Positions 18,946-37,813 of a stretch of DNA of 37,881 nucleotides are shown here, one piece after another. The position numbers and the translations under genes were made by a program. Position 1 is the stretch's first letter. Each line of letters opens with the position of its first letter. The notes under the pieces were generated by a model. It made no database searches. It saw only the letters and a list, made by a program, of their open reading frames with translations, and was not told the origin of the DNA. The DNA comes from Myxococcales bacterium 68-20 (GTDB lineage: Bacteria; Myxococcota_A; Polyangia; Polyangiales; Polyangiaceae): NCBI GenBank assembly GCA_001899635.1, contig MKVQ01000046.1, positions 1 to 37,881 of the forward strand. Reading direction: 5' to 3'.

Positions 18946-19029
18946 GGTCTCGTCGAGGTTGCTAATCGTGAGGATTACGAGGTCGTACGCCGCGGACTGG
19001 AGCCGGTCGACCGTCTTGCATGCCCCAAG

Positions 19030-19800
19030 CGGCGCCGGCGATCCCAGCGCTTGCGCGCGATTGCGGGTGTGAGGCTGGCGCGGAAGAGCGTGTGCCGGCC
19101 GCCCTCCGTCAGCGCCATCAGGGGAGGGTGTGCCTCGGCCTTGGCGATCTCCACGTTGCAGCCCGTGCCGGTGGCGATGGGCGCGGCAATGATCTTGGAG
19201 ACCATGCCGCCCTCGCCCATGCCGATGACGGAGCCGGTAGCATCTGCGCCGTGATGGCAGCGACTTCGGGGATATGGGTCGTCGCTGCGGCCAGGCGAGC
19301 GTCGGCAGTAGTAGAGCCCATCGACGTCGGACAGCAGCACCAGCATGTCGGCGCCGATCGTGGAGGCCACGCGCGGGCGTAGCTGGTCATTGTCGCCAAA
19401 CTTGATCTCGGTGTGGCGACGTGTCGATCGCATTGATCATCGGCACTGCGCCCAGTCCGATCAGCGTGCCCAGCGTGGCGCGGGCGTTGAGATAGCGGTG
19501 GCGCTCTTCGGTATCGCCGAAGGTCAGCAGCACATGCGGGCGAGGATGCCGATGTCGGCACCGGGGCGGCGAGCGCACCTGCCCACTGCACGGACTGGGA
19601 TTTCTCCAGCCGTAATCCGCCGGTTTGGGCTTGAGCAGCCCGCGCCCCAGCGCGATGGAGCCGGGCGAGGCCAGCACCAGCTGGCGGCCTTCCTTATTCA
19701 GGCTCCAGATGTCGGTGCAAAGAGAGGTCAGCCAGTCGCGGCGCAATTTGCCGCTGGTACATCGACCAGCACCTTGATGACGATGCGGCGGCATCGCCGA
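19030..19800 (-). pseudogene. proB: Glutamate 5-kinase relic
   Basis: The minus strand encodes the amino-acid-kinase domain of ProB in several frames. In order there are [27 protein letters not shown] with [36 protein letters not shown] with [33 protein letters not shown] with IGADMLVLLSDVDGLYY, GMVSKIIAAPIATGTGC and LTPAIARKRW. The normal enzyme phosphorylates glutamate in proline synthesis. The conserved NENDT site is changed to NAIDT, and at least three frameshifts are present. The PUA domain is missing; after ARKRW the sequence is unrelated. The peptide blocks look more like alphaproteobacterial ProB than deltaproteobacterial, which would suggest transfer, but this needs a tree. Confidence 0.78.
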
Positions 19801-20009
19801 ACACCCGGCTGGTGGGTGCACCGCCATCTTCCTCTTAGGCGCGCCGGTCGGAACAACGAGGACTCAAACTGGGGCCGCGAGCTCACGCAACGAGTTCAGC
19901 TCCTCTTCGGCGGGAGCTCGTCCCGGCGCTCGTCGCTTCGAAAGCCGAACCGAGGACCCGACCGCGCCCGCTTTACCGTGGACCGTCGCGCTCGTAGTAT
20001 CAGTGCGAG

Positions 20010-21104
20010 ATGCTGCGGCGGCGAAGCATCGTTGTGATGACTGTCGTAGGCATAGCAGCTACGCCAGCACGCGCCGCCGACGGACTGGCATCGCCTTTGC
20101 TAGAGCGGGCCGTCTACGACGCTGGGAGCGCGTGTCCCACGCGCGAACAGTTCATCGAGAGCGTTCAACGCTACATCAGGACCCGAGAACCCGTCGAACA
20201 CGGCGCCCGGGACCTTCGCATTCGGATCGAGGGACGACCGCCGCACGTACTCGGCAAGCTCTCGATCTCGAGCGAACAGGGCAAGCTCACGAAGCGAGAG
20301 TTCTCCGGCCCCGATTGCGAAGCCGTCGCCCGTGGGCTCGCCATCGTCGTAGCGCTGACAATCGATCCACGAGCCAACGTCTTTCAGTCGACTTCCCCCA
20401 CCCTGGAGTCGAACGGCGACGAGCTCTCCTCCAAGGAGGGCCGGCCTTCAGAAGATCCGCCCGAACACGGAGCCCCTCCGAGCCCGCCGCATCCAGCGCC
20501 AGTGGACAGGCGGCCGCGTCCGCCCAGGCCGAGCCTCGTGACGGTTTCTCCTTCGTCGAAGGCGGCTGCGCGCGTCCATTTTTCCGCCGAGGTCCGGGCC
20601 GAACTTACGTCGGCCGTCGTGACTGGCGCCTTGCCCGTGCTTGGCGTGGCCATCGGAATGGAGGCCGCTCCCATGTACATGCCGCGCTGGTTCCGGCCGT
20701 CGCTGGCGATCGGCATGCGTCAAAGCATCTCCAAGGAAGTGAGCTCCTCCCGAGGAGGCGCGGATTTCGTTCTGACTGCAGCGACCGCTCGTATATGTCC
20801 GGTCCGATCTTCCGTGTTTGCGGAGCGCTTGGCGATCTTCCCTTGCGTCGAAGGGGAGATGGGAGCGCTGCAGGCCGAAGCTTACGGACTTCTCGATGCA
20901 CGGCGAACCACCAACCTCTGGCTCAATGTTGGGGCGTCGGCCTTCGGCACCCTTCGCATCGTCGACCACTGGTTCGTCCTCGCCAACGTCTTCGTGAGCC
21001 GCCCCCTATCGCGCAACCGGTTCGAGGTAGATACGGGTGAGCTCATCTCCAGAGCTCCACCAGCAGGCTTGACGGTGGGCTTGGGCTCGAGCGTGAGCTT
21101 CTGA
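20010..21104 (+). CDS. Secreted outer-membrane-like protein, cassette copy 1
   Basis: The 364-residue product starts with a Sec signal peptide (MLRRRSIVVMTVVGIAATPA, cleavage near ARA-AD). A small N-terminal domain follows with two cysteines (GSACPTREQFIESVQRYI and FSGPDCEAVARGLAIVVAL). Then comes a Pro/Ser-rich linker around residues 130-185. The C-terminal half has alternating polar and aromatic strands and ends in SVSF with a terminal Phe, typical of an outer-membrane beta-barrel. It is paralogous to 34410-35447 in layout, the paired cysteines and the linker. No named family is recognised. It lies 69 bases before the ECF sigma gene and opens the large operon, so it may be a sensor or target of that sigma factor; this is inference. 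Confidence 0.8.
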   Translation: MLRRRSIVVMTVVGIAATPARAADGLASPLLERAVYDAGSACPTREQFIESVQRYIRTREPVEHGARDLRIRIEGRPPHVLGKLSISSEQGKLTKREFSGPDCEAVARGLAIVVALTIDPRANVFQSTSPTLESNGDELSSKEGRPSEDPPEHGAPPSPPHPAPVDRRPRPPRPSLVTVSPSSKAAARVHFSAEVRAELTSAVVTGALPVLGVAIGMEAAPMYMPRWFRPSLAIGMRQSISKEVSSSRGGADFVLTAATARICPVRSSVFAERLAIFPCVEGEMGALQAEAYGLLDARRTTNLWLNVGASAFGTLRIVDHWFVLANVFVSRPLSRNRFEVDTGELISRAPPAGLTVGLGSSVSF

Positions 21105-21173
21105 CCGCCGAGGTACGGTGGGCTCGAGCGATTTCGTGATCGGTCTTTCCCCTCGCGGCATTATCCGGGTGAA

Positions 21174-21758
21174 ATGACCGCCTCCTCGGCAGCGCCTTCG
21201 GCCGCAGAAAGAGCTCTGCTGTCGATGAAAGATGAAGCGGAGGAAAGAGCTCGACTCGAGAGGTTGGTGGCGACCCATTTCTCGAGCATCTGGCGGTTCC
21301 TTCGGCGCCTCGGCCTCCCCAGCGCCCTAGCCGACGACGCCGCTCAGGACGTATTTCTCATCGCTTCGCGCCGTGCTTCAGAGATTCGGACAGGCAGCGA
21401 GTATGCATTTCTCGTCGGCACCGCTCTCCGCGTCGCTCGCGGGCTTCGCCGCAAGCGAGAGAGAGAGCCTGTATCCGACGAAGTCGATGTCGTCGTCGAA
21501 GATTTCGATGCCACCTCGCCCGAGCAGATGCTCGACGACCAGAAGATGTGCGCCCTAGCGTATCGCCTTTTGGAAGAGCTCGATGAAGACCTTCGGCAAT
21601 TGTTTGTCCTCTACGAAATCGAAGGACTGACTATGCCAGAGATAGCGCAACTCACTGGACTCCCCCTCGGCACCGCTAACTCGCGCCTTCGCCGCGCGCG
21701 ACAGACCTTTCGCCTCCGTTTCGAAAGACATCGCAAACGTCTGGGAGGTACCCGATGA
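21174..21758 (+). CDS. ECF sigma factor, cassette copy 1
   Basis: This 194-residue protein has only sigma regions 2 and 4, as in ECF sigma factors that direct RNA polymerase to a small regulon. Region 2 is FSSIWRFLRRLGLP with DDAAQDVFLIASRR. Region 4 is LYEIEGLTMPEIAQLTGLPL followed by GTANSRLRRARQTF, a clear helix-turn-helix. The ATG is preceded by GGGTGAA. About 30 residues of charged N-terminus precede region 2, also seen in the second copy. The stop overlaps the next start as ATGA at 21755-21758, so synthesis is coupled to the membrane protein that follows, as expected for a sigma/anti-sigma pair. Confidence 0.92.
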   Translation: MTASSAAPSAAERALLSMKDEAEERARLERLVATHFSSIWRFLRRLGLPSALADDAAQDVFLIASRRASEIRTGSEYAFLVGTALRVARGLRRKREREPVSDEVDVVVEDFDATSPEQMLDDQKMCALAYRLLEELDEDLRQLFVLYEIEGLTMPEIAQLTGLPLGTANSRLRRARQTFRLRFERHRKRLGGTR

Positions 21759-22468
21759 GGAACATTCCTCGCTTGCGAGACGAAGACTCAGACATCGCTA
21801 AGCTACTCTCGTCGCTGGATACCGACAAGCCCGCGGTCGATGTGAGTGCTCGCGCATCCAGTAGGCTCCGTGAAGCGACCTCCACTTCACACGCGAACGA
21901 ACGGCCCGTTTCGCTCACGATGAACCTTCTAGGGTACGCTTCGCCGTGGATAGTGGTGGGCCTTCTCGGCGTGACCCTCCTCACCGGATACGGTACCAGC
22001 GCGGCGCCGGTCGCGACGCCCTCATTCACGTCGCCGTCGGCGCCTTCGCTTCCAGAACACGCTCCAGTCCTAGCACCACCACCAGCCGCAACTACCATCT
22101 CTGTCGAAGACTTGCCGGCGGCGAGCGAAAGTAGGCCCTCCTCGATAGCCGCGAAGCGACCGTCGCCTTCCGGCTCGACATCCGCGCCTTCCAAATCGTC
22201 CTTTCGCGAAGAGCTCGCGCTCGTCGAGGCCGCGCGTACGCATCTCGACAACGGTGACGGCGCATCCTGCCTCTCGGTGATCGGGCGTTACGAGCGCCAG
22301 TTTCGCGGAGGCGTGTTCGCGCAGGAGATGGAGCTGATCCAGATCGAGGCGCTTGCTCGTGTGGGCGAACCTGAACGAGCTCGTTCTCTCGCCCAGCGCT
22401 TTCTCGCAAGCCAGCCCGATAGCCCATACGCAGAACGAGCTCGTTTGGTGCTCCAAAAGCTGCCCTAA
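21755..22468 (+). CDS. Single-pass membrane protein with TPR-like domain, putative anti-sigma
   Basis: The 237-residue product has a cytosolic N-terminus of about 60 residues, one membrane helix (SPWIVVGLLGVTLLTGYG), a Pro/Ser-rich periplasmic linker and a C-terminal helical domain. The linker contains the motif TISVEDLPAAS, matched by TVSVDELPTVA in copy 2. The C-terminal region (EEARTHLDNGD-like helices, FAQEMELIQIEALARVGEPE, RARSLAQRFLASQPDSPYAE) reads as two TPR-like repeats. Position directly after and overlapping an ECF sigma gene is the classical place of an anti-sigma factor, but no zinc-binding HxxxCxxC or other named anti-sigma motif is seen in the cytosolic part. The role is therefore inferred from context only. 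Confidence 0.8.
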   Translation: MRNIPRLRDEDSDIAKLLSSLDTDKPAVDVSARASSRLREATSTSHANERPVSLTMNLLGYASPWIVVGLLGVTLLTGYGTSAAPVATPSFTSPSAPSLPEHAPVLAPPPAATTISVEDLPAASESRPSSIAAKRPSPSGSTSAPSKSSFREELALVEAARTHLDNGDGASCLSVIGRYERQFRGGVFAQEMELIQIEALARVGEPERARSLAQRFLASQPDSPYAERARLVLQKLP

Positions 22469-22485
22469 TTGGCAGGAGGCGCAAC

Positions 22486-23676
22486 GTGAAATTTAGGATC
22501 AAGACCGCTGCGGGCGCCTTGCTCGTCGTCGGCGTGCTCGGAGTATTGGCAACCTCTTGCTCTACGGGACTCGAGCGTACGGTTCTGCTCGGGAGAAACC
22601 CGGACGGCGATGCGGGACTGACGCCCGCATTTACGCCACCCGAGCTCGACGGCGGCGAAACGGACGCGGGCAACGAGCTCACGATGTACTGCCCCTCGGA
22701 TAAATGTCCGGCAGGGCGAACGACCTGCTCCACTTCGCGTTTCCGCTGCGACGTGGACTTGAAGAACGATCAGAGGAACTGCGGTGCCTGCGGGGCCGCG
22801 TGTCCGGCGCAGAACACCCACGAGTTCTACGAGTGTGCCGAAGGGCGCTGCCTCCTCTACTGCAGGGAGGACTGGGCCGATTGCGACGGCATTCCTGACA
22901 ACGGCTGCGAGACATCGATCTCGACCAACGACAACTGCGGTGCGTGCGGCGCCACGTGCACCGACCCAGCAAAGCCTTGCGTCAGGCGAAGCCTAGGCGA
23001 TTACCAATGTGGATGTGAAGTCGGCAAACTGAAGTGCGTCGGCGGATGCCAGGATGTAACAGGAGACGATAAGAACTGCGGGGCCTGCAGGAACGTCTGT
23101 CCCAGCACCGTGGACGGAGGACCGGCCCCCTACGATTACATGTATTACGGGTGCGTGGACAGCCAATGCGACCGCCTGAAGTGCGTCCCCTATCGCGCCA
23201 ATTGTGACGGCGTCGATTCCAACGGCTGCGAAGTCGACCTGCTTTCGTCGGACAATTGCGGCGCGTGCGGAGTCGTGTGCCCGCCGGGCCAGGCATGTCG
23301 ACCGGACCAGCGCGGTGCGCCGCAGTGCATGTGCCCCGCCGGCACGACGTTCTGCATGGGCATGTGTGTCGACCTCGCGTCGGACCCAGCCAACTGTGGC
23401 GCGTGTGGTTTGGCATGCCCGAGCGGACCTTCGGGAGGATCGTCGGCAGTCGCAGTCTGTGAGTTCGGCATTTGCGGTCGGCAATGCATCGTTGGCACGG
23501 CCGACTGCAATGGGAATGAGAAGGACGGCTGCGAAGTCAACACGAACAACGACCCGAACAACTGCGGCGGCTGTGGAGTCACCTGTAACGCCGTCGCAGG
23601 GCAAGCCTGTGTCGGAGGCACATGCGTCGTTGAGCCATGCCCTCCTGGCGAAACACCGGTAGAGGTCCCGAAATGA
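22486..23676 (+). CDS. Cys-rich NCGACG-repeat lipoprotein, cassette copy 1
   Basis: The 396-residue protein starts at a GTG with GGAGG six bases upstream. Its signal peptide ends in VLATSC, a lipobox. The mature part is built of repeats in which a block such as DCDGIPDNGCETSI is followed by DNCGACGATC, with intervening CxxGxCxxxC segments. Matching blocks are NCDGVDSNGCEVDL plus DNCGACGVVC and DCNGNEKDGCEVNT plus NNCGGCGVTC. The spacing resembles the Stig1-like Cys-rich domains found in myxobacterial surface proteins, probably fully disulfide-bonded outside the cytosol. Function is unknown. Its stop overlaps the next gene by ATGA. The second copy at 36872-37813 is shorter and stops inside a repeat. 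Confidence 0.85.
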   Translation: MKFRIKTAAGALLVVGVLGVLATSCSTGLERTVLLGRNPDGDAGLTPAFTPPELDGGETDAGNELTMYCPSDKCPAGRTTCSTSRFRCDVDLKNDQRNCGACGAACPAQNTHEFYECAEGRCLLYCREDWADCDGIPDNGCETSISTNDNCGACGATCTDPAKPCVRRSLGDYQCGCEVGKLKCVGGCQDVTGDDKNCGACRNVCPSTVDGGPAPYDYMYYGCVDSQCDRLKCVPYRANCDGVDSNGCEVDLLSSDNCGACGVVCPPGQACRPDQRGAPQCMCPAGTTFCMGMCVDLASDPANCGACGLACPSGPSGGSSAVAVCEFGICGRQCIVGTADCNGNEKDGCEVNTNNDPNNCGGCGVTCNAVAGQACVGGTCVVEPCPPGETPVEVPK

Positions 23677-24884
23677 GATTGGTTCTCTGGATTGTCGGCG
23701 CTGGAATTGCGGCATGCTCGGCCGCGGGTGTTGGCGGCGGGGAATATGGAGACGATCCCGAAGACGCGTCCATGCCGACGCCGACGCCGGAGGTCGAAGC
23801 GGGCCCCGACGTCGGACCGACCGAGCTCGACGCGAGCGCTTGTACCGATTGCGAGTACTTCCCAGAGACATGCTCGGCCGACGTTCTCTGTCCCAATGGG
23901 CCGTTCGACGCGAATAGCTCCGAGAGCTTGGATGTGCGCACGTCGATCGAATCCATCCGAGGCCGGTCGTCGAAGGACGTGTGGGTCGTCGGTGCGCTCG
24001 GCGCCATCGCCCATTTCGATGGCGTCGTGTGGAAGCGCTCGGACGCCGAGACGCAGGACACGTTGATGAATCTCTGGCTACGCGAATCCTCCGAAGTAGC
24101 GCTCGGTGGATTCGGTCAGGTCTATGCGCGCGGCGTCGAGATAGTGGATGGCGGCGCATCTCCGTCCATCGACGGATGGGCGCCGTACTCGCCGACCTAC
24201 GTCGCGGGCCAGAAGCTCACGGACGCGCGCGTCGTGGGCGTATGGGCGGCCCCCGGCTCGGAGTGGCTCTGGTGCGCGGCACAAACCAGCTCCACCAGCA
24301 CCACGACGAGCGCTACGGCCGGACTGTGGCGTCTGCGGCAGCGTCCGTCGACGCCGTTCGAGGGTAACGTTGCCGTTGCTACGAGCGTATGCCGGCAGAA
24401 CGCGTGCACGCAGATGACGAGCGTTCATGGGGCGTCCGCCGACGAGCTCTGGGCCGTCGGAATCGAGGGAAGCATCGTTCGCGTGAACGATGCCGAGTCC
24501 GCTTCCCCGAGCGTCAGGGGATTCAACAGCCAGACATTGAATGCGCTGAACGGCGTCTGGAGTGCATCCGCGTCCGAAGCCTGGGCGGTCGGTGTAGCCG
24601 GAACCATCCGCCACTACACCGGGGATCCTGCGCGCTGGGACATCGTTTCGAACGTTCCGACGAGCGTCGACCTCAACGCCGTTTGGGGAACGTCACCGTC
24701 CGACGTTTGGGTGGTCGGTGACAGGGGCGTCGTCCTTCACTACGACGGAAACGGGTGGTCGCGCGTCAAGATCGCCGGCATCGGGCAGGATCGACCCGAC
24801 CTCAAGACCGTGTGGAGCGCCGCGCCGGGTCACCCCTGGATCGGTGGCAGGGGCGTGGTTCTTTCGCTTGGAGGAAAGCCGTGA
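23673..24884 (+). CDS. Beta-propeller lipoprotein 1
   Basis: The 403-residue product starts at the ATG inside the ATGA overlap with the preceding gene. The signal peptide ends in GAGIAAC, a lipobox. A Glu/Asp/Pro-rich linker follows. The rest contains five or more blade-like repeats of about 45-50 residues with the pattern VWGxSxxDVWVVGxxGxxxHxDGxxW; examples are GRSSKDVWVVGALGAIAHFD, SASASEAWAVGVAGTIRHYT and GTSPSDVWVVGDRGVVLHYD. Such repeats occur in many myxobacterial lipoproteins and are predicted to fold as beta-propellers that bind partners or glycans outside the cell. Enzymatic motifs were not seen. It ends in a GTGA overlap with the next gene. Confidence 0.85.
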   Translation: MRLVLWIVGAGIAACSAAGVGGGEYGDDPEDASMPTPTPEVEAGPDVGPTELDASACTDCEYFPETCSADVLCPNGPFDANSSESLDVRTSIESIRGRSSKDVWVVGALGAIAHFDGVVWKRSDAETQDTLMNLWLRESSEVALGGFGQVYARGVEIVDGGASPSIDGWAPYSPTYVAGQKLTDARVVGVWAAPGSEWLWCAAQTSSTSTTTSATAGLWRLRQRPSTPFEGNVAVATSVCRQNACTQMTSVHGASADELWAVGIEGSIVRVNDAESASPSVRGFNSQTLNALNGVWSASASEAWAVGVAGTIRHYTGDPARWDIVSNVPTSVDLNAVWGTSPSDVWVVGDRGVVLHYDGNGWSRVKIAGIGQDRPDLKTVWSAAPGHPWIGGRGVVLSLGGKP

Positions 24885-26194
24885 GGGTATGGTTCCTGGT
24901 CGCTTGCGGCTCCCTCCCACTCGTCGGTAGCGCCGCCGCAGCGTGTGCGAACGCCGAAGACGATGAATTGATGACGCCTCAGCCGGACGCGGCTCCGACC
25001 GAGCCTGTGGACGTGCCGGACTCGAGCAACGGTCCCGATGCTGCGGCGGATGCCCAAGACGACGCAGCCCTCGAACAACCGAGGTGCAGCTCCGACGGAT
25101 GGTGTGCCACCGCCTTGCCCGACACCGATCTGCTGGTGAAAGATATCTGGGCCCTACCGGGGTACGCGTTCGCGGTTGCGGAGAGCCCGACCCTCGGCGT
25201 GAAAGTCCTCGAGTGGAGCGATGCTCGCTCCCAATGGGACTACATCGATGATTTTACCCAAAACGAGCCAGGGGGGGGCCGGTATGCCGGGAAGATCTGG
25301 GCACCGAACGAGGACGAGGTTTACTACGGCGTGGCCCCTGGGTACGTCTACCACGGACTACGACCCAAGGCGCCCGCAACTCGTTGGTCGTGGGAACGTG
25401 GCCTGCTCGGGACAATCAACCTCTCGAACCCCGACGAAGCCAATCCATCGTATTGGAAGAATGCGTCCACTCGTGTGCCGGCATTGGGCGTCTGGGGCAC
25501 GAGCAGCGGCGACGTCTACGCGTGGTTCAAGAACACCATCTATCATTCGACGCCGGCCGATGGCGGCGGACTCGAATGGATACCCGAATACGTCGCCGAC
25601 GACACCGACGCCGCCGCCGAGCAGATTTACTTCTTCGACGCGACCGGGACGAGCTCGAACGACGTTTGGTTTGCTGGAGGACGCTCCCGCTCGTCGGCGG
25701 GATGTGCAGTCGTCGTTCACAAGACAGCTTCGAAATACGAGCGAATCGCGGACGGCGTCCTCACCGGTAACTCCAGTCCCTGCGCGACTCGAGCGGGAAC
25801 GCTGATGATTGGTGGAACCGAGGGGTGGTTGACCAACATCCAGGCACTCGGACCGAGCGAGCTCATCGGGCTCAAAGGGGCGCGCGACGTGGCGCGAATC
25901 TCCTCCAGCGACGTCGGCTACTCGGTCGCGCTCGCATCGGTACCTACGAAGGTCACCGCGAGCGGACTGAACTCGCTGTCCGCAGTCGCAAACGACCTCT
26001 GGCTGGGGGGCTCGGGCGTGGTCGTTCGCGGTGACAACGTTTGGGACGGCGGGACGTATGGGGGAGCATACGAGCTGTCGTCGATTGCCCTGAACGGTCC
26101 GCTCGGCCGAGCGATCTACCAAGTTCGAGGCACCTCCAACAACAACCTCTGGGCGATCGGTGTCCGCTATGCGCTCCACAAGACAACGCCTTGA
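24881..26194 (+). CDS. Beta-propeller lipoprotein 2
   Basis: The GTG at 24881 overlaps the previous stop and has GGAGG seven bases upstream. The 437-residue product has a lipoprotein signal ending in GSAAAAC. After an acidic linker rich in Asp and Pro it carries irregular blade-like repeats, such as GVWGTSSGDVYAWFKNTIYH, DATGTSSNDVWFAGGRSR and RGTSNNNLWAIGVRYALHK. It is related to the gene before it but with more diverged and less regular blades. Two Cys lie close together near the start of the mature domain (RCSSDGWC). The probable role is an extracellular binding module. It belongs to the same coupled operon; the next gene starts inside its 3' end. Confidence 0.8.
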   Translation: MRVWFLVACGSLPLVGSAAAACANAEDDELMTPQPDAAPTEPVDVPDSSNGPDAAADAQDDAALEQPRCSSDGWCATALPDTDLLVKDIWALPGYAFAVAESPTLGVKVLEWSDARSQWDYIDDFTQNEPGGGRYAGKIWAPNEDEVYYGVAPGYVYHGLRPKAPATRWSWERGLLGTINLSNPDEANPSYWKNASTRVPALGVWGTSSGDVYAWFKNTIYHSTPADGGGLEWIPEYVADDTDAAAEQIYFFDATGTSSNDVWFAGGRSRSSAGCAVVVHKTASKYERIADGVLTGNSSPCATRAGTLMIGGTEGWLTNIQALGPSELIGLKGARDVARISSSDVGYSVALASVPTKVTASGLNSLSAVANDLWLGGSGVVVRGDNVWDGGTYGGAYELSSIALNGPLGRAIYQVRGTSNNNLWAIGVRYALHKTTP

Positions 26195-27575
26195 TCGACA
26201 TTCGTTCGTCGGTCGATACCCGCTTTCTACGTTGCTCCTCCTGACGACGCTCGCGACCGGAGGCGCCGTCGCCAGCTGCTCGAGCGACGAAGAGCCGAAC
26301 CGGCTCGACCCCGGCGATGCGAGCCTCGAAGCGTGGACGCCGACGGAAGAGGCAGGCTCGTTCGATGACGGAGGCGCCGATGCGCTCTCGGATGCAGAGC
26401 CGGTTCTTGATGCCGCGCCGTTCGACGCTGGGCCGCGGCCGGTCGAGTGCACTTCGGCCCCCTGCGCGACCGAGCTCGTGACGACCTTCGCGCCGATCGA
26501 GTCCGACCGCAGCGAGGGATTCTGCGCGCTGCTGAACGACGGCACGGTCGCGTGCTGGGGCGCCAACGGGTACGGACAACTCGGCCGAGGTCCGGACGCC
26601 GGGACGCTGGACAGTCCGACGGCCATGCACGTCACCGGCCTTTCGGACATCGCGCACCTGAATCACACCTGCGCGATCGACAAGAGTGGCGGCGCGTGGT
26701 GTTGGGGGCGTGGACCTTTCCTCCAGAACGACGCCGGTTTGGTGACGAGCGAGTCTGCACCCGTGAAGCTTGCCCTGCCAGCCGCGAAGAGGGTCGCCGT
26801 CGGACTCAACGTGGGCTGCGCGGTCGTGGATGACGGAGTGCTTTGCTGGGGCCGCAACAGCAACGCGCAGCTTGCTCCGCTCTCGGAGGCCAACATCAGC
26901 GCGGTGTTCCTTCCGCGTCCCATGAGCTTCCCGAGCGGCGCGCCCGTCCGCGACGTATTCGTCGGAAATGGTTCGTTTGCTGTGCGCGAGGACGGGAGGA
27001 TGTCGACCTGGGGAGCCAGGACTTCACTGGCGCGCGCCACTCCGCTCACACCCGACCCTTATCCGACGGACATCCAACTCGCGGGGATCTCGTCGATCGA
27101 CGTGACGCTGGACAACGGATGCGCGACGGTCGCGGGGGTCGGTTATTGCTGGGGGCGCGCCATCGTGACAAGCGCGGTCAATTCCGTGATTCGTGTGCTT
27201 CCAGAGGCGGTAGCGACGCCCGAGCCGATCGTACAGATCTCCACGACGCGCGCCTTTGTCACGACCGAGCTCGGCGACACGATTCAGCGACCGCAGCGGT
27301 GGTGCGCGGTTGGCGTCTCCGGCGACGTGTATTGCTGGGGGTACAACGCCAGCGGCCAGGCGGGTGACGGGACGAAGACGGATGCATTCGACAGAGCAGT
27401 CAAGGTCAAGGGACTGCCCGAACCAGCCAATCAGGTAAGGACGATGCCCGACGCGACTTGCGCGCTGCTCACGAACGGAAAGGTCTATTGCTGGGGAAGC
27501 AACAACAACGGGCAGCTCGGGAATGGCGTACTGCGAGCCCCGAGCCTCGTGCCTCAGGAGGTGGTCTTGCCATGA
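26169..27575 (+). CDS. RCC1-repeat lipoprotein
   Basis: I use the ATG at 26169, which overlaps the previous gene by 26 bases; ATG 26160 is possible. The N-terminus is basic and then hydrophobic (LSTLLLLTTLATGG) with lipobox AVASC. The mature 468-residue protein has RCC1-type repeats, each with the pattern CAxxxxGxVxCWGxNxxGQLG: CALLNDGTVACWGANGYGQL, CAVVDDGVLCWGRNSNAQL, CAVGVSGDVYCWGYNASGQA and CALLTNGKVYCWGSNNNGQL. RCC1 repeats fold as a seven-bladed propeller; in eukaryotes they act on Ran, but bacterial secreted ones are of unknown function. The Cys pairs flanking each blade probably form disulfides. The stop is in an ATGA overlap with the next gene. Confidence 0.88.
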   Translation: MRSTRQRLDRHSFVGRYPLSTLLLLTTLATGGAVASCSSDEEPNRLDPGDASLEAWTPTEEAGSFDDGGADALSDAEPVLDAAPFDAGPRPVECTSAPCATELVTTFAPIESDRSEGFCALLNDGTVACWGANGYGQLGRGPDAGTLDSPTAMHVTGLSDIAHLNHTCAIDKSGGAWCWGRGPFLQNDAGLVTSESAPVKLALPAAKRVAVGLNVGCAVVDDGVLCWGRNSNAQLAPLSEANISAVFLPRPMSFPSGAPVRDVFVGNGSFAVREDGRMSTWGARTSLARATPLTPDPYPTDIQLAGISSIDVTLDNGCATVAGVGYCWGRAIVTSAVNSVIRVLPEAVATPEPIVQISTTRAFVTTELGDTIQRPQRWCAVGVSGDVYCWGYNASGQAGDGTKTDAFDRAVKVKGLPEPANQVRTMPDATCALLTNGKVYCWGSNNNGQLGNGVLRAPSLVPQEVVLP

Positions 27576-29371
27576 GGCGACTAGGAATGTCCCAGTGCGT
27601 GATCGCTGGCGGTTTCGTTTTCGGGCTCCTTGCTACCATGGGCGCGTGCGCGGACGATCGACCGGCGTTCGGCAATCGCAAGACCGAGTTCAACCCCGGT
27701 AACGATGCTGCTGTCGTCGAAACCCCAGACTGCCAGCTCCAATGCTCAGTCGATGGACGCTCGGTGATCGAGACGTGCACGGGTGCAATCGTCCAAGAAT
27801 GCGCAGCCGAGCTCGCGTGTGGAGCAGGGACGTGCATGACGCCATGCGCGGCGGCGGAGGCAGACCGGAGCTCGAACGGGTGCGAGTTCTATTTCCAGTC
27901 CCCACAGATGGCGCGCTCGACTCCAGCGTCCTGTTACGCAGCCTACATCGTCAACACATCGCTTCAGCCGGTCGACCTTTCGGTTGAGCTCGAAGGAAAG
28001 TCACTCGATGTATCGAAGGCGCTCTTTCGCACTGCCCCAGGTAGTGCGGACCTGATTCCGCATACCGGATCGATCGAGCCTGGTGAGAGCGCAATCGTAT
28101 TCCTCTCCGAGTTCACTCCGCAGCAAGCCTTGCCAGTCGACTGGAAGCAGAACTACATTGGCTGTCCGGCTGGCGTGGTTCCAGCCTCGTACGTCAATAG
28201 AATTCGACGTGGCACCGATATGGGGAACTCGTTCCGTCTGAAAACGAACGTGCCCGTGAGTGTCGCGACGATCTTTCCCTTCGGCGGAGCCGAGAGCTAC
28301 ATTCCGTCAGCGACGCTCGTCTTGCCGGTCGCCTCTTGGGCCAAAGAGCACATCCTCGTAAACGGATGGGAAGCTAGCGAGGCCGGACGGCCCAGCGCGC
28401 AGATCGTGGCCTCCGAAGACGACACCGAAGTAACCATCATTCCAAAGCACGACATCCAAGACGGAGAAGGGGTGACGGGCGGTCGGGCAGGACACCCGGC
28501 GACCTACCGGCTTGGCAAGGGACAACACCTGCAGATCGTCCAGCAGAAGGAGCTCACTGGGAGCATCGTGACCTCCACCAAGCCCACGACGATCTTCGGC
28601 GGAAACTCCTGCGCCTTCGTCCCGGCGCTCGCGCTTGCGTGCGATACGCTTTCCCAGCAAATTCCGGCGTTCGAGCAATGGGGAGCCGAGTACGTCGCCG
28701 TTGGCTATCGACCTCGCCTCGGCAACGAGCACGAGCCGCTGCCGTATCGCATCGTCGCCGCGCGCGACGGCACCATGCTCGACTACGATCCGGCGATCCC
28801 CGCTGGAGCCCCCACCATCCTGAATGCCGGCGAGATGGCCGTATTCCAGGCTGGCTCGGGAGACGCCTTCGTCGTCCGCACGCAGGATACCGAACACCCG
28901 ATCTACATGAGCGCCCACATGACAGGCGGAGCGGGAGACACAAGGACGACGAAGGCATACGGAAACTGGGGCGATCCGGAGTTCGTGAACGTCATTCCGG
29001 CGCGACAGTATATGTCGTCGTACAGCTTCTACGCGGATCCGACATACAGAGAGACATCGCTCGTCATCGTCAGAGCCAAGACTCGCGGCGAGTTCAAGGA
29101 TGTGTGGCTCGAGTGCACAGGCAATCTGACCGGCTGGCGAACGATCGGAACGGGTAGCGAATACGAGTTCGTGAGGGTCGATATCTCACGCAACGGTGGT
29201 CCAGGCGATAGCGTTGGAGCGAGCATATGCCAGTACGGCCTCCAGCGCATGCGGAGCGATGGCCCATTCACGGCGACGTTGTGGGGTTGGGATAAGTTCG
29301 CCAGCTACGCGTATCCCGGTGGCATGGCTCAACGTAAGCTGGTCCAAAAGCCGCTAGACCCAGTCAATTGA
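27572..29371 (+). CDS. IgGFc-binding-like surface lipoprotein
   Basis: The 599-residue product starts at the ATG in the ATGA overlap, with AGGAG upstream. Its signal peptide ends in LLATMGAC, a lipobox. A short Cys-rich segment (CQLQCSVDGRSVIETC, CAAELACGAGTCMTPC) precedes a large domain with alternating Gly, Ser and aromatic residues. This has the layout of the IgGFc_binding N-terminal domain (PF17517), including CYAAYIVNTSLQPVDLSVEL, SVATIFPFGGAESYIPSATL, VNGWEASEAGRPSAQIVASE and TTIFGGNSCAFVP. In myxobacteria such proteins are widespread surface proteins with no known ligand; the family name derives from a human mucin-like protein, so IgG binding must not be assumed. It closes the intact part of the operon. 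Confidence 0.82.
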   Translation: MRRLGMSQCVIAGGFVFGLLATMGACADDRPAFGNRKTEFNPGNDAAVVETPDCQLQCSVDGRSVIETCTGAIVQECAAELACGAGTCMTPCAAAEADRSSNGCEFYFQSPQMARSTPASCYAAYIVNTSLQPVDLSVELEGKSLDVSKALFRTAPGSADLIPHTGSIEPGESAIVFLSEFTPQQALPVDWKQNYIGCPAGVVPASYVNRIRRGTDMGNSFRLKTNVPVSVATIFPFGGAESYIPSATLVLPVASWAKEHILVNGWEASEAGRPSAQIVASEDDTEVTIIPKHDIQDGEGVTGGRAGHPATYRLGKGQHLQIVQQKELTGSIVTSTKPTTIFGGNSCAFVPALALACDTLSQQIPAFEQWGAEYVAVGYRPRLGNEHEPLPYRIVAARDGTMLDYDPAIPAGAPTILNAGEMAVFQAGSGDAFVVRTQDTEHPIYMSAHMTGGAGDTRTTKAYGNWGDPEFVNVIPARQYMSSYSFYADPTYRETSLVIVRAKTRGEFKDVWLECTGNLTGWRTIGTGSEYEFVRVDISRNGGPGDSVGASICQYGLQRMRSDGPFTATLWGWDKFASYAYPGGMAQRKLVQKPLDPVN

Positions 29372-29429
29372 TCGGCATTTGGGGCGGCGAGGCGGCCGGC
29401 CGCGTCGCACGTTCCGTTCCGTCACCGCT

Positions 29430-29960
29430 ATCCCGTTGCTGTCTCTTCCTCGTCGGCGAGTGCGGCAGTCGAATCCCAGGGCGCATCCACGGATGGCGAC
29501 GCGAGCGACGCGAGGGCGTCCGTGGTCGACGTAGGTATGGACGCGCTCGCCAACAACGAACGCGCTGCCAAGCCGGATGCGAAGAGCTGCATGGACTGCT
29601 GAACCTCGTACAACGAGAGAGGTTCCGTAGTTTTCTTCCATATGCTCAAAAAGTTCCGGTGTCCATCATCTCCAGGGGGGCTTCGCGACGGAGTGCAAAG
29701 ACACCTACTGCGCGACACCCTCGACGACTCTGTCCAAGGGCGACGCCTGCAACGTCTGCATCACTGCACTTGCCGAAGACACGAAATTCTATTCGGACGA
29801 GCCGATGCCATGTGCGCGCCGGTCGTGGACTGTTTCGCGCATCAACGAGCGGGCGGCGCAGAGCCTGGTTCGGTCTTGCGACAAAGACATGCTCCTGCAA
29901 CTTTGCGGGGTCTTCCACCCGCGAAAGGGAGGTTCGGTTTGTGGGCACCAAACCATCTTA
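29430..29960 (+). pseudogene. Decayed Cys-rich lipoprotein at operon end
   Basis: Downstream of the IgGFc-like gene, in the same direction, one frame reads an acidic linker like those of secreted lipoproteins (STDGDASDARASVVDVGMDA) and ends SCMDC and a stop at 29600. Other frames continue with FATECKDTYCATP, GDACNVCITALAEDTKFYSD and CAPVVDCF. The C-x2-C and C-x4-5-C pattern is typical of small Cys-rich myxobacterial lipoproteins. At least two frameshifts separate the pieces and no intact signal peptide is visible, so it is probably a dead ninth member of the operon. Confidence 0.45.
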
Positions 29961-30289
29961 TGTGACTTACCCTACCATCCGGGGTTCATCGATGCTGTTC
30001 CATCATATGCAGCCGCCGTCGTTCGGTTCGCTCTTGCGCGGAGCGGCGCCGTCATGTGCCACTCGACCATCGAGCCGGGCGAGGCTCGAGACATGGCTCG
30101 TCGACCGGGCGATGAGGGCTCTCTTTCGCTCATCCCTCCGTTGGTTCTAGAGACGACGCGGGATACAGGACCTGCATCCTGGTCCGATGACGACGTCGTC
30201 GCGCGTCGGAAGTTGGTACGAGAACATCATCGCTGGCAGCTTTTCAATTCAGAACTTCGGGTTCGGCATGTAAGCGATTTGCCCGGATC

Positions 30290-30689
30290 GTCGAGCCGAG
30301 AAGCTTTGCCCCACCACGGCACGAAGTTCGCGGTCGAAGGACGCTCCGAAGCGCTCCACGTCGAGATGGCCGCGATCGGAGTGCGTGTGAAGAACATCGA
30401 ACCGGGCGCGATCGCCACAGACTTCAGCGGGCGCTCGTTCGACTTCAACAACGACGAGAACAAGACCGAGTATCAAGGGCTCGTTCGTGCGATCATGGCG
30501 TCCATGGCCGCGGGCCGGCAGATGTCGCCTGCCGAGCTCGTGGCGGACGTGATCTATCAGGCCGCGACCCGACGGAAAGACCAACTTCGGTACGTCGCGG
30601 GTTCTGACGCCGTGCGGAGCATCGCCATGCGGAAGGCAGCCGACGACCCTACTTACGTGGGAGCGCTGAGGGCGCAGTTCGGTATCTGA
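30290..30689 (+). pseudogene. Short-chain dehydrogenase C-terminal relic
   Basis: One plus-strand frame reads HHGTKFAVEGRSEALHVEMA, then GVRVKNIEPGAIATDFSGRS and YQGLVRAIMASMAAGRQMSP followed by VADVIYQAATRRKDQLRYVAG. This is the C-terminal half of a classical SDR, starting at the catalytic YxxxK, which reads HHGTK with the tyrosine changed to His. The Rossmann half with TGxxxGxG is absent. The sequence upstream (29960-30290) shows no SDR resemblance. The loss of half the protein and of the catalytic Tyr indicates a pseudogene. An intact SDR lies 2.4 kb downstream but is not a close copy. Confidence 0.72.
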
Positions 30690-34409: not shown

Positions 34410-35447
34410 GTGGCCAGGAGCGTGCGCGCTCGCGTATGGGCATGGAGCGCGGTGGTGGCAGCGACGTTTGCGTCGTGGCCGGCGCGAGCGGAGAACGCAC
34501 CCTTCACACTCGCGTGGTCCGCTCCGGCCGGATGCCCTTCGGCCGAGGATATCGTCGACGCGACACGCCTCCGCTTGAACGAGGCGGCCCCGGACCGCTC
34601 GGCGGAGCTCTTGGTGACGGGCACGGTGACCGAGGAGCGCGGTGGGTTTGTCGTCGAGCTCCAGACGACGGATGCGTCGGGGCGAGCCGTCGGGAGGCGA
34701 GCGATCCGCGTGAACGGACCGCGCTGCCGCGCGGTCGAGGAGCCGACCGCGCTCGTGCTCGCGCTGCTCGTCGCCAGTGCGCCCCCCGGCACGACGCCTC
34801 TGCCCCCTCCGGAGCCGCCGGAGGCTCCGCCTCCCGAAGCGCCGCCGTCGGAGCCGTCGCCGCGTACGCCGCCTTCGGGCTTCGCGAGAACGACGGCGTC
34901 TCCGCGATTGGCGCCGGAGGCGCGAGAGTCTCCCGCTCATGTCGCTCTCGGCCTAGACGGCGTGACGTCGGTCGGTGCACTTCCGATCGCCGGCTTGGGA
35001 GTTGCGATTCGCGGGACCTACGCGACGGGCTCGCTTCTCTTCGGTGTCGAAGGAAGCTTCGAGGTTGGTGGAACGGTGCGCGCTCGCGGCGGCGAAGTGG
35101 CGTTCCAGCTCGCTCGTGCATCGCTGCTTGCGGGCGTGCAGCTACTTGCCACCCGGCGGCTCGAGCTCGCGCTCACGGTCCGTGCGTGCGGCGGCACGCT
35201 TCGCGTCCTACCCACCAACGTGTCCGTGGTCCGGACGAACGCGCGCCCTGCGGCCTTTGTCGGCTCCGGGCTCCTTCTTCGGATGCCGCTTGTCCCCGGC
35301 TTCCATGCGGAGGTGTTCCCCGAGCTCGAGGCCACCATCGTGCGCGACCAGTTCAACATCCGCGACGGGGACGTGCTCTACCCCATCCATACGCCCGAGC
35401 GATTCGCCGCTCGCCTATCGCTCGGGCTTGCGTACGTATTCCGCTGA
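34410..35447 (+). CDS. Secreted outer-membrane-like protein, cassette copy 2
   Basis: A GTG at 34410, with GAGGT about nine bases upstream, starts a 345-residue protein. The signal peptide ends around SWPARA-EN. The N-terminal domain has the same paired cysteines as copy 1 (PAGCPSAEDIVDATRLRL and VNGPRCRAVEEPTALVLAL). A strongly Pro/Glu-rich linker (PPPEPPEAPPPEAPPSEP) leads to a barrel-like C-terminal half ending FAARLSLGLAYVFR. Sequence identity to copy 1 is low but layout, cysteines and neighbours agree. The function is unknown. The sigma gene follows 60 bases later. Confidence 0.8.
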   Translation: MARSVRARVWAWSAVVAATFASWPARAENAPFTLAWSAPAGCPSAEDIVDATRLRLNEAAPDRSAELLVTGTVTEERGGFVVELQTTDASGRAVGRRAIRVNGPRCRAVEEPTALVLALLVASAPPGTTPLPPPEPPEAPPPEAPPSEPSPRTPPSGFARTTASPRLAPEARESPAHVALGLDGVTSVGALPIAGLGVAIRGTYATGSLLFGVEGSFEVGGTVRARGGEVAFQLARASLLAGVQLLATRRLELALTVRACGGTLRVLPTNVSVVRTNARPAAFVGSGLLLRMPLVPGFHAEVFPELEATIVRDQFNIRDGDVLYPIHTPERFAARLSLGLAYVFR

Positions 35448-35507
35448 TCGCGGGGAATCGTAGTCGGGACGTTAAAAAGAAACGTACCGCTGAGCATTAA
35501 AGACTGT

Positions 35508-36047
35508 GTGGACGCCTCGCTGCACTTAGCCGAAGCCCGACGCGAGGCTACGGACGACGAGGTGGCCGCACGGATGACGATCGAGCAGCTCTTCTCCGCG
35601 CACGTCGATTTCGTCTGGCGGAGCCTCCGACACTTCGGTGTGGCAGAGATTGACCTCGACGATCAGACACAAGAGGTTTTTCTCGTCGCGCACCGGCGTC
35701 TGGCTCAGTGGAGCGGCGATCAACCTCGAGCATGGCTCGGGGCCATCGCCCGCCGCTGCGCAGCGGCCTATCGCAGGCGAAGCCATCGGCGTCACGAGCA
35801 GTCGGTCGAGGCGGTGCCGGAAGGGCTGGCTCCTCACGACCCTGCGCTGCGTGCCGAGGTCGATCGCCTGAGCCGGATCTTGGATTCGCTCGACGAGGAC
35901 AAGCGAGCCGTCTTTCTCTTGTACGAGGTCGAAGAAATGACGATGCGGGAAGTCGCTGAGATCGTCGGATGCACCCTCCCGACAGCGTACGCGCGCCTCT
36001 ATGCGGCTCGGCGTGACCTTGCACGCGTGCTCGAGGAAGCCCGATGA
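35508..36047 (+). CDS. ECF sigma factor, cassette copy 2
   Basis: This 179-residue sigma-70-like protein has region 2 (FSAHVDFVWRSLRHFGVA, DDQTQEVFLVAHRRL) and region 4 (FLLYEVEEMTMREVAEIVGC then TLPTAYARLYAARRDL). The N-terminal extension of about 25 residues matches the position of that in copy 1. The start is a GTG at 35508 with no good ribosome site; the ATG at 35574 has GAGG at long spacing and is a real alternative, but it would remove the shared extension. The stop overlaps the next start as ATGA at 36044-36047, as in copy 1. Sequence divergence in region 4 suggests the two sigma factors recognise different promoters. Confidence 0.92.
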   Translation: MDASLHLAEARREATDDEVAARMTIEQLFSAHVDFVWRSLRHFGVAEIDLDDQTQEVFLVAHRRLAQWSGDQPRAWLGAIARRCAAAYRRRSHRRHEQSVEAVPEGLAPHDPALRAEVDRLSRILDSLDEDKRAVFLLYEVEEMTMREVAEIVGCTLPTAYARLYAARRDLARVLEEAR

Positions 36048-36841
36048 GGAACGATCCCCCCCGCCTCGCGGATGAAGGCTCGGAGGCGCTACGAGCCCTC
36101 CTGCTCTTGCGTCGTGCAGGCCCCGGTCCTTCGAGGTCCGATCGGATCGCGGAGCGCCTCGCAGCCGCCGGAGTCATGTCCGCCACGCAGAAACGCGCCG
36201 TTGGCAAGGCGTCGCTCGTAGGTCTTTCGCTCGGCGCCCTCGTACTGCTCGCTGCGGGAGGCGCGGTCCTCTTTACACGAAGCGCGGCGGTCTCGCCGGC
36301 GCCTGCGAAGTCGCTCAGCGTGACGGCGCCGGTGCAGGCACTCGAGTCTGCGGAGCCCCAGCAGGCCGAGCTCGTGCAACCTCCCTCGATCGTCCCTTCG
36401 ACTACCTCTGCGGGCGCTTCGCACGCACCGGCTTCCGAAGTGCCTGGACCGGCGCGGACGGTCTCGGTGGACGAGCTTCCCACCGTCGCCGCGACGAACT
36501 CTGCCGCGCGACGAACTGCGGAGCCGCCGTCGAACGCAGGCTTGTCCGAGCTCCAGATCGTCCAGCGCGCGCAGGCCTCGCTTTCGTCCGATCCCGCGCG
36601 TGCGCTCGAGCTCGCGCGGACGCACGAGCGCACTTTCCCCGCAGGAGAGTTCGTGCAGGAGCGCGAGGTGATCGCCGTGGACGCGCTCGCGCGGCTCCAC
36701 CGTCGCGAAGAGGCGACGACCCGCGCACGGGCGCTCCTTCGTCACCACCCGGCCACGCCGTATGCCGCTCGGCTGGAAGCTGCGCTCGGGACCCCACTCA
36801 TTTCGACATCGAACTCCGAAGGCAATTCTGGGGCACCGTAA
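36044..36841 (+). CDS. Single-pass membrane protein with TPR-like domain, cassette copy 2
   Basis: The 265-residue protein has a cytosolic N-terminus of about 55 residues, one membrane helix (LVGLSLGALVLLAAGGAVLF), a linker with TVSVDELPTVA and a C-terminal helical domain (LSELQIVQRAQASLSSDPAR, FVQEREVIAVDALARLHRRE, RARALLRHHPATPYAARLEA). These align with copy 1 at 21755-22468 in every part. The conserved linker motif and coupling to an ECF sigma gene argue for a membrane-tethered regulator. Whether it acts as an anti-sigma is not shown by any motif. The next gene follows after 30 bases. Confidence 0.8.
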   Translation: MRNDPPRLADEGSEALRALLLLRRAGPGPSRSDRIAERLAAAGVMSATQKRAVGKASLVGLSLGALVLLAAGGAVLFTRSAAVSPAPAKSLSVTAPVQALESAEPQQAELVQPPSIVPSTTSAGASHAPASEVPGPARTVSVDELPTVAATNSAARRTAEPPSNAGLSELQIVQRAQASLSSDPARALELARTHERTFPAGEFVQEREVIAVDALARLHRREEATTRARALLRHHPATPYAARLEAALGTPLISTSNSEGNSGAP

Positions 36842-36871: not shown

Positions 36872-37813
36872 ATGTTGCGAAGCATCGCGCGCGTGAGCGC
36901 GCTAATGACCCTTGTCGTGCCGACGACTGTGGTGCTCGTCGGCGGCTGTGGTGAGAGTGTCACCGTGGCCGACGCCCTTGGCTCCGGACCGATCTTCGGT
37001 TCGGCCGACGCAGGCGAGGACGCGATCGCTCCTACAAACGAGATGGACGCCGAGGCCGTGGACGTCCTGATGTGCCCGGTGATGACGTGCACATTCCCCC
37101 AGGCGACCTGCCCCTCGTCCGCATCTCCCTGCGACGTCGACCTCCTCTCGGATGACGAGAACTGCGGGGCCTGCGGAGTTCGCTGCAGCGGACCGGGCGT
37201 CGACCACAGCAAGTGGACGTGCGTCGATGGGAAATGCACGTTCAGCTGCGACAGCGCCGACCGGCGCAACTGCGACGGCAATCCGACGAACGGCTGTGAG
37301 ACGCTCATCACCGACGTGACGAACTGCGGGGCCTGCGGGCGGCAGTGCGCGGAAGGTCAGATCTGTGACGAGGGCAAGTGCAAGCCCCGGTGCGAGTCGT
37401 GGGGCCTCCCGGACGAGTGCCCGCATCCTCAGCTCCCGACGAGCGCCATCTGCACCGACCTGCGAACGGACGACCAGAACTGTGGAGCCTGCGGCAACGT
37501 CTGCGACCCGACCGGGCCGGATCTGCCTCCGCTCACCTCGGACATGTACTACGGCTGCGGAGCCGAGAAGTGCGGGGTCCCGAAGTGCAGGCAAGCTCAA
37601 AGGGCGGACTGCAACTCCGACCTTACGGATGGCTGCGAAGTCGAGCTCGTCACGGCGGACAACTGCGCGGCGTGCGGTGACAAGTGCGGGCCGGGCCAGG
37701 CCTGCCTCTCCAACCCGCTGACCTCGAGCGCTCAATGCGTGTGCGCGCCGGGAGAGACGCTCTGCTTCGGCTTCCTGTGCGTGCGCGTGGAGGACGATCC
37801 CAACAACTGTTGA
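36872..37813 (+). CDS. Cys-rich NCGACG-repeat lipoprotein, cassette copy 2, truncated
   Basis: The 313-residue product has a signal peptide ending VLVGGC, a lipobox. It repeats the block pattern of copy 1: NCDGNPTNGCETLI with TNCGACGRQC, DQNCGACGNVCDPTGPDLPP with MYYGCGAEKC, and DCNSDLTDGCEVELV with DNCAACGDKC. It ends ...EDDPNNC and a TGA, exactly where copy 1 and every other repeat continue with Gly-Ala-Cys-Gly. Copy 1 has about 80 more residues after this point. A premature stop or deletion is therefore likely. No ribosome site is strong, but the ATG follows GAGGACATGTTGCC. Confidence 0.85.
   Translation: MLRSIARVSALMTLVVPTTVVLVGGCGESVTVADALGSGPIFGSADAGEDAIAPTNEMDAEAVDVLMCPVMTCTFPQATCPSSASPCDVDLLSDDENCGACGVRCSGPGVDHSKWTCVDGKCTFSCDSADRRNCDGNPTNGCETLITDVTNCGACGRQCAEGQICDEGKCKPRCESWGLPDECPHPQLPTSAICTDLRTDDQNCGACGNVCDPTGPDLPPLTSDMYYGCGAEKCGVPKCRQAQRADCNSDLTDGCEVELVTADNCAACGDKCGPGQACLSNPLTSSAQCVCAPGETLCFGFLCVRVEDDPNNC

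Follow-up and report, generated by a model that had tools for sequence, protein, structure and literature searches.

We examined a stretch of 37,881 nucleotides (the window) of contig MKVQ01000046.1 from Myxococcales bacterium 68-20 (GCA_001899635.1), in which eight genes on the + strand encode a proposed sensor and sigma factor system together with five lipoproteins. Open reading frames (ORFs) were read from the window, and the genes are named by letter: B for barrel, S for the extracytoplasmic function (ECF) sigma factor, A for anti-sigma-like, C for Cys-rich, P1 and P2 for the propellers, R for RCC1, and I for IgGFc.

20010..21104, + strand: B, proposed sensor, with signal peptide, soluble N-terminal domain, Pro-rich linker and 8-strand barrel
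21174..21758, + strand: S, ECF sigma factor (Sigma70_r2, Sigma70_r4_2, TIGR02937), start more likely at 21225
21755..22468, + strand: A, anti-sigma-like, with N-terminal helices, hydrophobic stretch, Pro-rich linker and C-terminal TPR
22486..23676, + strand: C, Cys-rich lipoprotein and first gene of the output block, Stig1, lipobox TSC
23673..24884, + strand: P1, lipoprotein, Ycf48-like propeller by a profile-level match, lipobox AAC, ORF open from 23637
24881..26194, + strand: P2, lipoprotein sharing the profile family of P1 (the two profiles converge), lipobox AAC
26169..27575, + strand: R, RCC1 lipoprotein (PF00415, PF13540), lipobox ASC
27572..29371, + strand: I, IgGFc_binding lipoprotein (PF17517), lipobox GAC

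An earlier note, made from the sequence alone, had described these genes as one translationally coupled operon under an ECF sigma factor. Its one-strand gene order and all seven junctions were reproduced at every coordinate: B and S are separated by 69 bp and A and C by 17 bp, S-A, C-P1 and R-I share an ATGA at 21755, 23673, and 27572, respectively, P1-P2 share a GTGA at 24881, and P2 and R overlap by 26 bases at 26169. S is an ECF sigma factor, containing only Sigma70 regions 2 and 4, above the curated cut-offs (Sigma70_r2, 24.3 bits against 24; Sigma70_r4_2, 54.6 against 25.7; TIGR02937, 58.2 against 42.9). Its start is more likely the ATG at 21225 than position 21174, because of the position of a promoter-like element described below and the family median length of 174 aa. 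The five consecutive lipoboxes were confirmed in the window, and the lipobox signal recurs across 93 paralogous operons. Three of the proposed scaffolds lie over their cut-offs, namely Stig1 (PF04885) in C (31.2 bits, cut-off 24.1), PF00415 (86.4 bits, cut-off 21.7) and PF13540 (93 bits, cut-off 22) in R, and PF17517 in I (340 bits, cut-off 25.6, E 1.6e-101). C falls below the cut-off for the MXAN_6577-like family NF041328 (91.4 bits versus 100), and a PDB search with the IgGFc profile gave no match at E 0.01. B, P1, and P2 individually match no Pfam or NCBIfam family. As to the two propellers, the P1 alignment profile matches Ycf48 (E 3.9e-4), 5 of 17 P1 relatives match PSII_BNR and P2 belongs to the same profile family, but the window P1 alone gave no match; P1 is thus Ycf48-like at profile level only.

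The genome from which the window derives (11.9 Mb, 52 contigs, 98.4% complete, 4.2% contamination) contains 141 PF17517 matches, 3 of which are fragments. We took 140 stretches, 135 around PF17517 matches and 5 around other sigma relatives, and merged them with the window into 107 segments of 2.35 Mb, about one fifth of the genome. Six-frame ORFs of these segments were searched with profiles iterated from the eight window proteins, yielding 134 B, 134 S, 132 A, 130 C, 141 R, and 142 I family members; the profiles of P1 and P2 retrieved 255 and 260 ORFs, respectively, and settled on a single family. When same-strand neighbours were grouped across the 2.35 Mb, the exact order B-S-A-C-P-P-R-I was found in 93 operons and all seven families in 103. 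Within 11 kb on either strand, all seven families surround 124 of the 142 IgGFc ORFs, a count to which adjacent operons can contribute. The window operon is therefore one of more than 100 related operons. Those with an IgGFc gene and at least 5 members number 129 and, measured as stop-to-stop spans, occupy 1,201,946 bases, or 10.1% of the genome. Tandem copies occur, with four consecutive on contig C17 and three on C12, and in a minority of copies B, S-A, and C-P-P-R-I are inverted relative to each other yet still adjacent. Contamination or an assembly artefact is unlikely, because the closest cargo pair is 88% identical (P1, P2, R, and I), the copies lie on many contigs, and related metagenome-assembled genomes (MAGs) carry 46 and 17 PF17517 matches.

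The fine layout is likewise conserved over the 93 exact-order operons. Four-base overlaps join S-A in 72, C-P1 in 56, and P1-P2 in 77 of them, and the median P2-R overlap is exactly 26 bases. Since the same overlaps recur across these paralogous operons, they are not due to chance. S and A overlap by some length in 81 operons, while gaps above 50 bp separate A from C in 34, R from I in 32, and B from S in 87 (median B-S gap, 129). A simple lipobox rule is passed by C in 69 operons, P1 in 77, P2 in 83, R in 86, and I in 58, compared with 1, 0, and 0 for B, S, and A; at least four of the five lipoproteins pass in 70 operons. The count for I is an underestimate, as an internal ATG was taken as the start in some copies, including the window's, and the lipobox Cys is invariant across 24 aligned IgGFc proteins.

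To compare the histories of the eight genes, Mantel correlations of protein distances were calculated across the 93 operons. B, S, and A (the regulators) form one block, with r of 0.75 for B-S, 0.71 for B-A, and 0.68 for S-A; partial correlations are 0.52 for S-B given A, 0.41 for A-B given S, and 0.32 for S-A given B. C, P1, P2, R, and I (the cargo) form the other, with pairwise r of 0.85-0.94. Cross-block values are 0.00-0.10, and regulator distances averaged over their block show no significant correlation with those averaged over P1, P2, R, and I (r 0.044, p 0.075). Individual operons give the same picture. The nearest neighbour by regulators is the nearest by cargo in only 2 of 93. Among the 49 operons having a cargo partner above 60% identity, 3 share regulators above 45% with it; reciprocally, 4 of the 57 operons with a regulator partner above 45% share cargo above 60%. 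All 21 pairs with a mean P, P, R, and I identity above 70% show regulator identities of 0.23-0.32, around the background mean of 0.28, and among the 30 closest cargo pairs a single one retains both blocks (cargo 0.69, regulators 0.60). In the window operon, the five cargo genes are nearest to one operon on contig C37, and the regulators to two others, both on C48. Within-block correlations were also high in the Labilithrix MAG ACE_MYX5 (0.70-0.77 and 0.81-0.91), for which 19 operons were available as a non-random sample of top matches. Because the block histories are independent, the eight genes constitute two exchangeable modules, B-S-A and C-P-P-R-I, and the earlier view of all eight as one unit is not supported. 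The joint lipoprotein assembly proposed with it fares better: the tight cargo co-evolution and the order kept in 93 copies argue for it, indirectly, for the five cargo products, though not for all eight genes together.

The change from one history to the other lies inside C. Residues 1-45 of C, comprising the signal peptide, lipobox, and linker, correlate with the regulators (r 0.07, 0.26, and 0.13; p ≤ 0.012) and show no correlation with cargo, whereas C from residue 46 tracks cargo (r 0.62, 0.74, and 0.59, among others). The signal peptides of P1, P2, R, and I track cargo. Where regulators are close but cargo is unrelated (39 pairs), C identity amounts to 0.37-0.43 over residues 1-45, compared with a background of 0.24-0.31, and is near background thereafter. 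The 37 pairs of the opposite kind, close in cargo and unrelated in regulators, start at background over residues 1-45 and then reach 0.41 (46-60) and 0.85 (61-75). At the DNA level, change points in 21 pairs have a median of +174 nt from the C start (interquartile range 153-189). These data place the breakpoint between the C signal peptide and linker and the first Cys motif.

22640..22692, + strand: putative block boundary inside C, up to the first Cys motif (window residues about 52-69), mapped by alignment from family-level data

At the 3' end of the cargo, identity drops at the I stop codon; the non-coding DNA may simply have diverged, and we claim no boundary there.

A candidate promoter was recognised in the interval between B and S.

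21131..21165, + strand: promoter-like element, ATTTCGTGATCG (21131-21142) and GGCATTATC (21157-21165), identified by a family motif, co-variation with sigma and an out-of-sample test

Expectation-maximisation on the 93 sigma upstreams returned the motif ATTTCgTGAtcA, with a log-likelihood of 164 versus 39 for shuffled sequences. The upstreams of B and C also exceed their shuffles (145 and 184), which we ascribe to GC pattern and coding DNA. Both patterns were discarded: that of B is GC-rich only, with instances not aligned when listed, and the strong match before C (width 30) reads as the end of the A coding sequence, which is conserved. Scored at 8 bits or above, the motif precedes 77 of 110 sigma genes in internal position and 8 of 9 in leading position (93 of all these having trained the model), as against 8/114 for B, 10/127 for R, 11/133 for I, 15/123 for C, 17/117 for A, and 15/253 for P. 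Out of sample, in other genomes, it was found at 19 of 31 sigma upstreams versus 2-6 of 30-43 for other genes. When 66 upstreams were aligned on the first element, a second element, GGcA, emerged 27-30 nt further on. Co-variation with sigma distance is seen at the first element's edges (r 0.21, p 0.0005) and in the second element (r 0.15, p 0.001), but not in the core (r 0.07, p 0.10) or the spacer (r 0.007, p 0.40). Such a pattern fits predicted promoters that are autoregulated and partly private, with some shared descent.

Because B and S lie more than 50 bp apart in 87 of 93 operons, with the promoter-like element between them, the likely transcript comprises seven genes, S to I; B is perhaps separate and probably has its own promoter. 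The coupled order of the eight-gene operon thus stands, but the inclusion of B in the same transcript is doubtful. A separate cargo promoter was not found, the sigma-type motif being present in 1 of 6 leading C genes of rearranged loci. Across 19800-30000 on both strands, 1 sigma-70-like and 7 terminator-like sites were detected, versus 1.5 and 7.0 in shuffled sequences. As these sites are no commoner than in shuffles, nothing follows from them on internal promoters or terminators in either direction.

AlphaFold models bear on the proposed roles of B and A. The B model (predicted local distance difference test score, pLDDT, 82) consists of a soluble N-terminal domain (about residues 29-118) with the helix/strand order H-E-H-E-E-E-H, a linker, and an 8-strand barrel (187-364). 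The barrel matches OmpA and NspA with a Z of 17.0, the aligned rows (VIA-align) covering residues 187-364 only. PDB sequence matches of the B profile were set aside, as they look like low-complexity linker. B may thus be an outer-membrane barrel acting as a sensor. The A model (pLDDT 77) shows helices, a low-confidence middle, and a TPR region (TPR_14 at 23.4 bits, just under the cut-off of 23.5; BamD/YbgF TPR, best E 6.7e-3), and a hydrophobic stretch was read by eye at about residues 69-86. A is a predicted anti-sigma factor because of its position, its overlap with S in 81 of 93 operons, and its co-evolution with S (r 0.68).

Taken together, we consider it rather probable that the genome carries a combinatorial array of more than 100 envelope-signalling switches, each driving a five-lipoprotein assembly, whose two blocks have been re-paired by recombination. 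In the proposed mechanism, A would be a membrane-spanning anti-sigma factor with a periplasmic TPR, which B would contact across the periplasm. Upon a signal, A would release S, and S would fire the promoter between B and S, producing more S, A, and the five lipoproteins. The latter would be co-translated and probably assembled together on the cell envelope. Over evolution, recombination inside the C leader would re-pair the blocks and place a lipoprotein set under a new sensor. The copy number, order, overlaps, lipoboxes, two-block co-evolution, breakpoint region, and sigma-linked promoter-like element were computed directly; that the lipoproteins form one complex, that they are exposed on the surface, and how the swap proceeds are predictions from sequence. 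A fuller statement strikes us as evenly balanced between right and wrong: a tenth of the genome would be given over to more than 100 envelope sensors, each having its private sigma and promoter, and to over 100 versions of a surface machine of five lipoproteins, the two being re-paired at the C leader.

Several results weigh against this reading. The regulators show a small but significant correlation with C (r 0.088, p 0.002), which comes mainly from the C leader, and in ACE_MYX5 the cross-block correlations reach 0.21-0.31, so pairing is less random there. Three of the 21 DNA change points lie elsewhere (+537, +501, and -5). A contains no known anti-sigma domain: Pfam searches up to E 1 gave TPR-type or weak hits only, and NCBIfam one YfiO hit. 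Twelve of the 31 sigma upstreams in other genomes, as well as that of a second sigma gene in the window (5.3 bits), lack the motif at 8 bits. Co-variation with sigma extends to a stretch downstream of the second promoter element (r 0.11, p 0.0005), and therefore shared descent explains part of the promoter signal.

Cell-surface signalling of the FecIRA type combines an ECF sigma factor, a membrane anti-sigma factor, and an outer-membrane receptor, which is a TonB-dependent, 22-strand barrel. By analogy, the array would share with it an outer-membrane protein with a soluble periplasmic part, a single-span regulator, an ECF sigma factor, and linked surface genes. It differs in that the barrel of B is 8-stranded, OmpA-like, not TonB-dependent, and without a Pfam family, that A has a TPR and no FecR match in Pfam, and that there are more than 100 copies with outputs swapped between switches. 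The array is FecIRA-like in logic but not a FecIRA member.

As for what the five lipoproteins do, we lean towards recognition or contact rather than uptake. A repertoire for recognition or contact (kin, prey, phage, or antigenic display), in which re-pairing would change when variants are shown, is a tentative possibility. It agrees with the copy number, sequence diversity, and exchangeable control, and myxobacteria use a polymorphic surface receptor, TraA (PMC6372800); however, each copy has its own switch, in place of one shared expression site. TraA/TraB outer-membrane exchange relies on a single self-recognition locus; what it would have in common with the array is a polymorphic surface protein of myxobacteria, and no homology is claimed. 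Less likely are nutrient-capture loci, a Myxococcota counterpart of the Bacteroides polysaccharide-utilisation loci (PULs) with one polymer per sensor. The many-copy arrangement of ECF sigma and anti-sigma pairs, each adjoining an outer-membrane protein and lipoproteins, follows the logic of the 26 ECF/anti-sigma-controlled PUL systems of B. thetaiotaomicron (PMC3878776). Yet no hydrolase, TonB-dependent transporter, or SusD domain was found by Pfam in the eight window products, and compared with these PULs, the array lacks SusC/SusD and glycan enzymes, has other outputs, and comprises about 5 times as many copies.

Whole-genome ECF sigma counts given for myxobacteria are about 45, 87, and 118 (PMC9304148), against which a single sigma family here has 134 matching ORFs in one fifth of a genome. 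Among the titles and abstracts listed from the open-licence literature searched, none dealt with such an array and none joined IgGFc-binding with myxobacteria, which does not show absence from print. The parts and regulatory logic are of known kinds; the scale and the fixed-point re-pairing of blocks were not found in that literature. If the proposed array is real, shuffling in this surface repertoire would affect the rules of display as well as the displayed molecules. The array would supply about 100 naturally occurring sigma/anti-sigma/promoter triples for studying specificity and insulation, and it makes testable whether bacteria re-wire sensors to outputs through block exchange. The co-evolving five-protein set, with more than 100 variants, is large enough for paired-alignment prediction of the putative surface complex.

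In other genomes, PF17517 matches are widespread and the module is less so. A match was present in 90 of 98 genomes sampled from the same family (own included); first-look IgGFc candidates numbered 144 in the own genome versus 0-22 in the 97 others. Named genomes were also scanned, using an alignment of IgGFc proteins as query, and 80 of 169 loci were kept; these showed the module, or a contig-limited part of it, around IgGFc in many loci of the Labilithrix MAGs ACE_MYX5 (46 PF17517 matches) and ACE_MYX7 (17), and in loci of ACE_MYX8, ACE_MYX12, RYN_370 (1 of 2 loci), and Polyangiaceae bin.255 (1 of 2 loci). A contig scan with a single IgGFc protein as query found no relative. No module surrounded IgGFc at the Sorangium, Polyangium, Minicystis, Byssovorax, and Enhygromyxa loci examined. 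Minicystis has 15 PF17517 matches and a Nannocystis 24; the IgGFc_binding genes of Sorangium, Polyangium, Minicystis, and Nannocystis share the domain but do not sit in a B-S-A-C-P-P-R-I module at the loci seen. The B family is older, with a match in 52 of 60 family genomes, although weak matches may reflect the low-complexity linker. In Nannocystis sp. RBIL2 (L297, 7033-11587), a B-S-A triplet lies divergent to a lone IgGFc gene, which suggests that the sensor-IgGFc linkage predates the full module. The family genome G043 has 33 B-family matches among 36 scored but none to IgGFc; in genomes such as this, outputs of another kind may be under the control of B-S-A cassettes.

Pairings between species also bear on the re-pairing of blocks. 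For 27 loci from other genomes, the regulator-best operon is the cargo-best operon in 14, falls within the cargo top five in 18, and lies beyond the top 20 in 6. One locus, L247, is re-paired, with S 86% identical to an operon whose RCC1 is only 44% identical, and RCC1 80% identical to another operon. The discordant L242, L245, and L272 are near ties, that is, recent cargo copies. A rival account has no swapping: duplication of entire operons would have been followed by very rapid regulator divergence under selection against cross-talk. It would explain the low regulator identity of recent cargo duplicates, but we reject it as highly improbable, since half of the tested pairings are conserved between species (in the 14 same-operon loci, identity is 60-92% for S and 50-89% for RCC1, and S nowhere falls below RCC1), close regulators with unrelated cargo also exist (of the 57 operons mentioned above, 4 share cargo above 60%), and the C leader tracks regulators while the remainder of C tracks cargo.

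The window holds part of a second family copy, grouped by profile as B-S-A-C with the remainder outside the window.

34436-35500, + strand: B of the second copy
35508-36047, + strand: S of the second copy, sigma domains in 35508-36044
36044-36841, + strand: A of the second copy
36872-37813, + strand: C of the second copy, Stig1 below cut-off in 36872-37810

This copy starts 5 kb downstream of the first. Only 7 bp separate B from S in it, and the sigma gene has no strong promoter motif, as scored above. Orphan blocks were also observed elsewhere in the segments: B-S-A without cargo at G000 C14:153961-156599, C17:7542-9933, and C27:147825-150616, and C-P-P-R-I with no regulator recognised in the segment at G000 C31:7178-14339, C42:274654-281548, and C23:259483-266601. 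These are possible exchange intermediates. Additional RCC1 genes adjoin some operon copies (G000 C49:28460-30643, C45:11539-14998, and C27:45001-47151). The window operon itself is flanked by gene remnants, an amino-acid-kinase fragment at 18978-19433 on the - strand (PF00696) and a short-chain-dehydrogenase fragment at 30243-30686 on the + strand (PF00106, just below cut-off).

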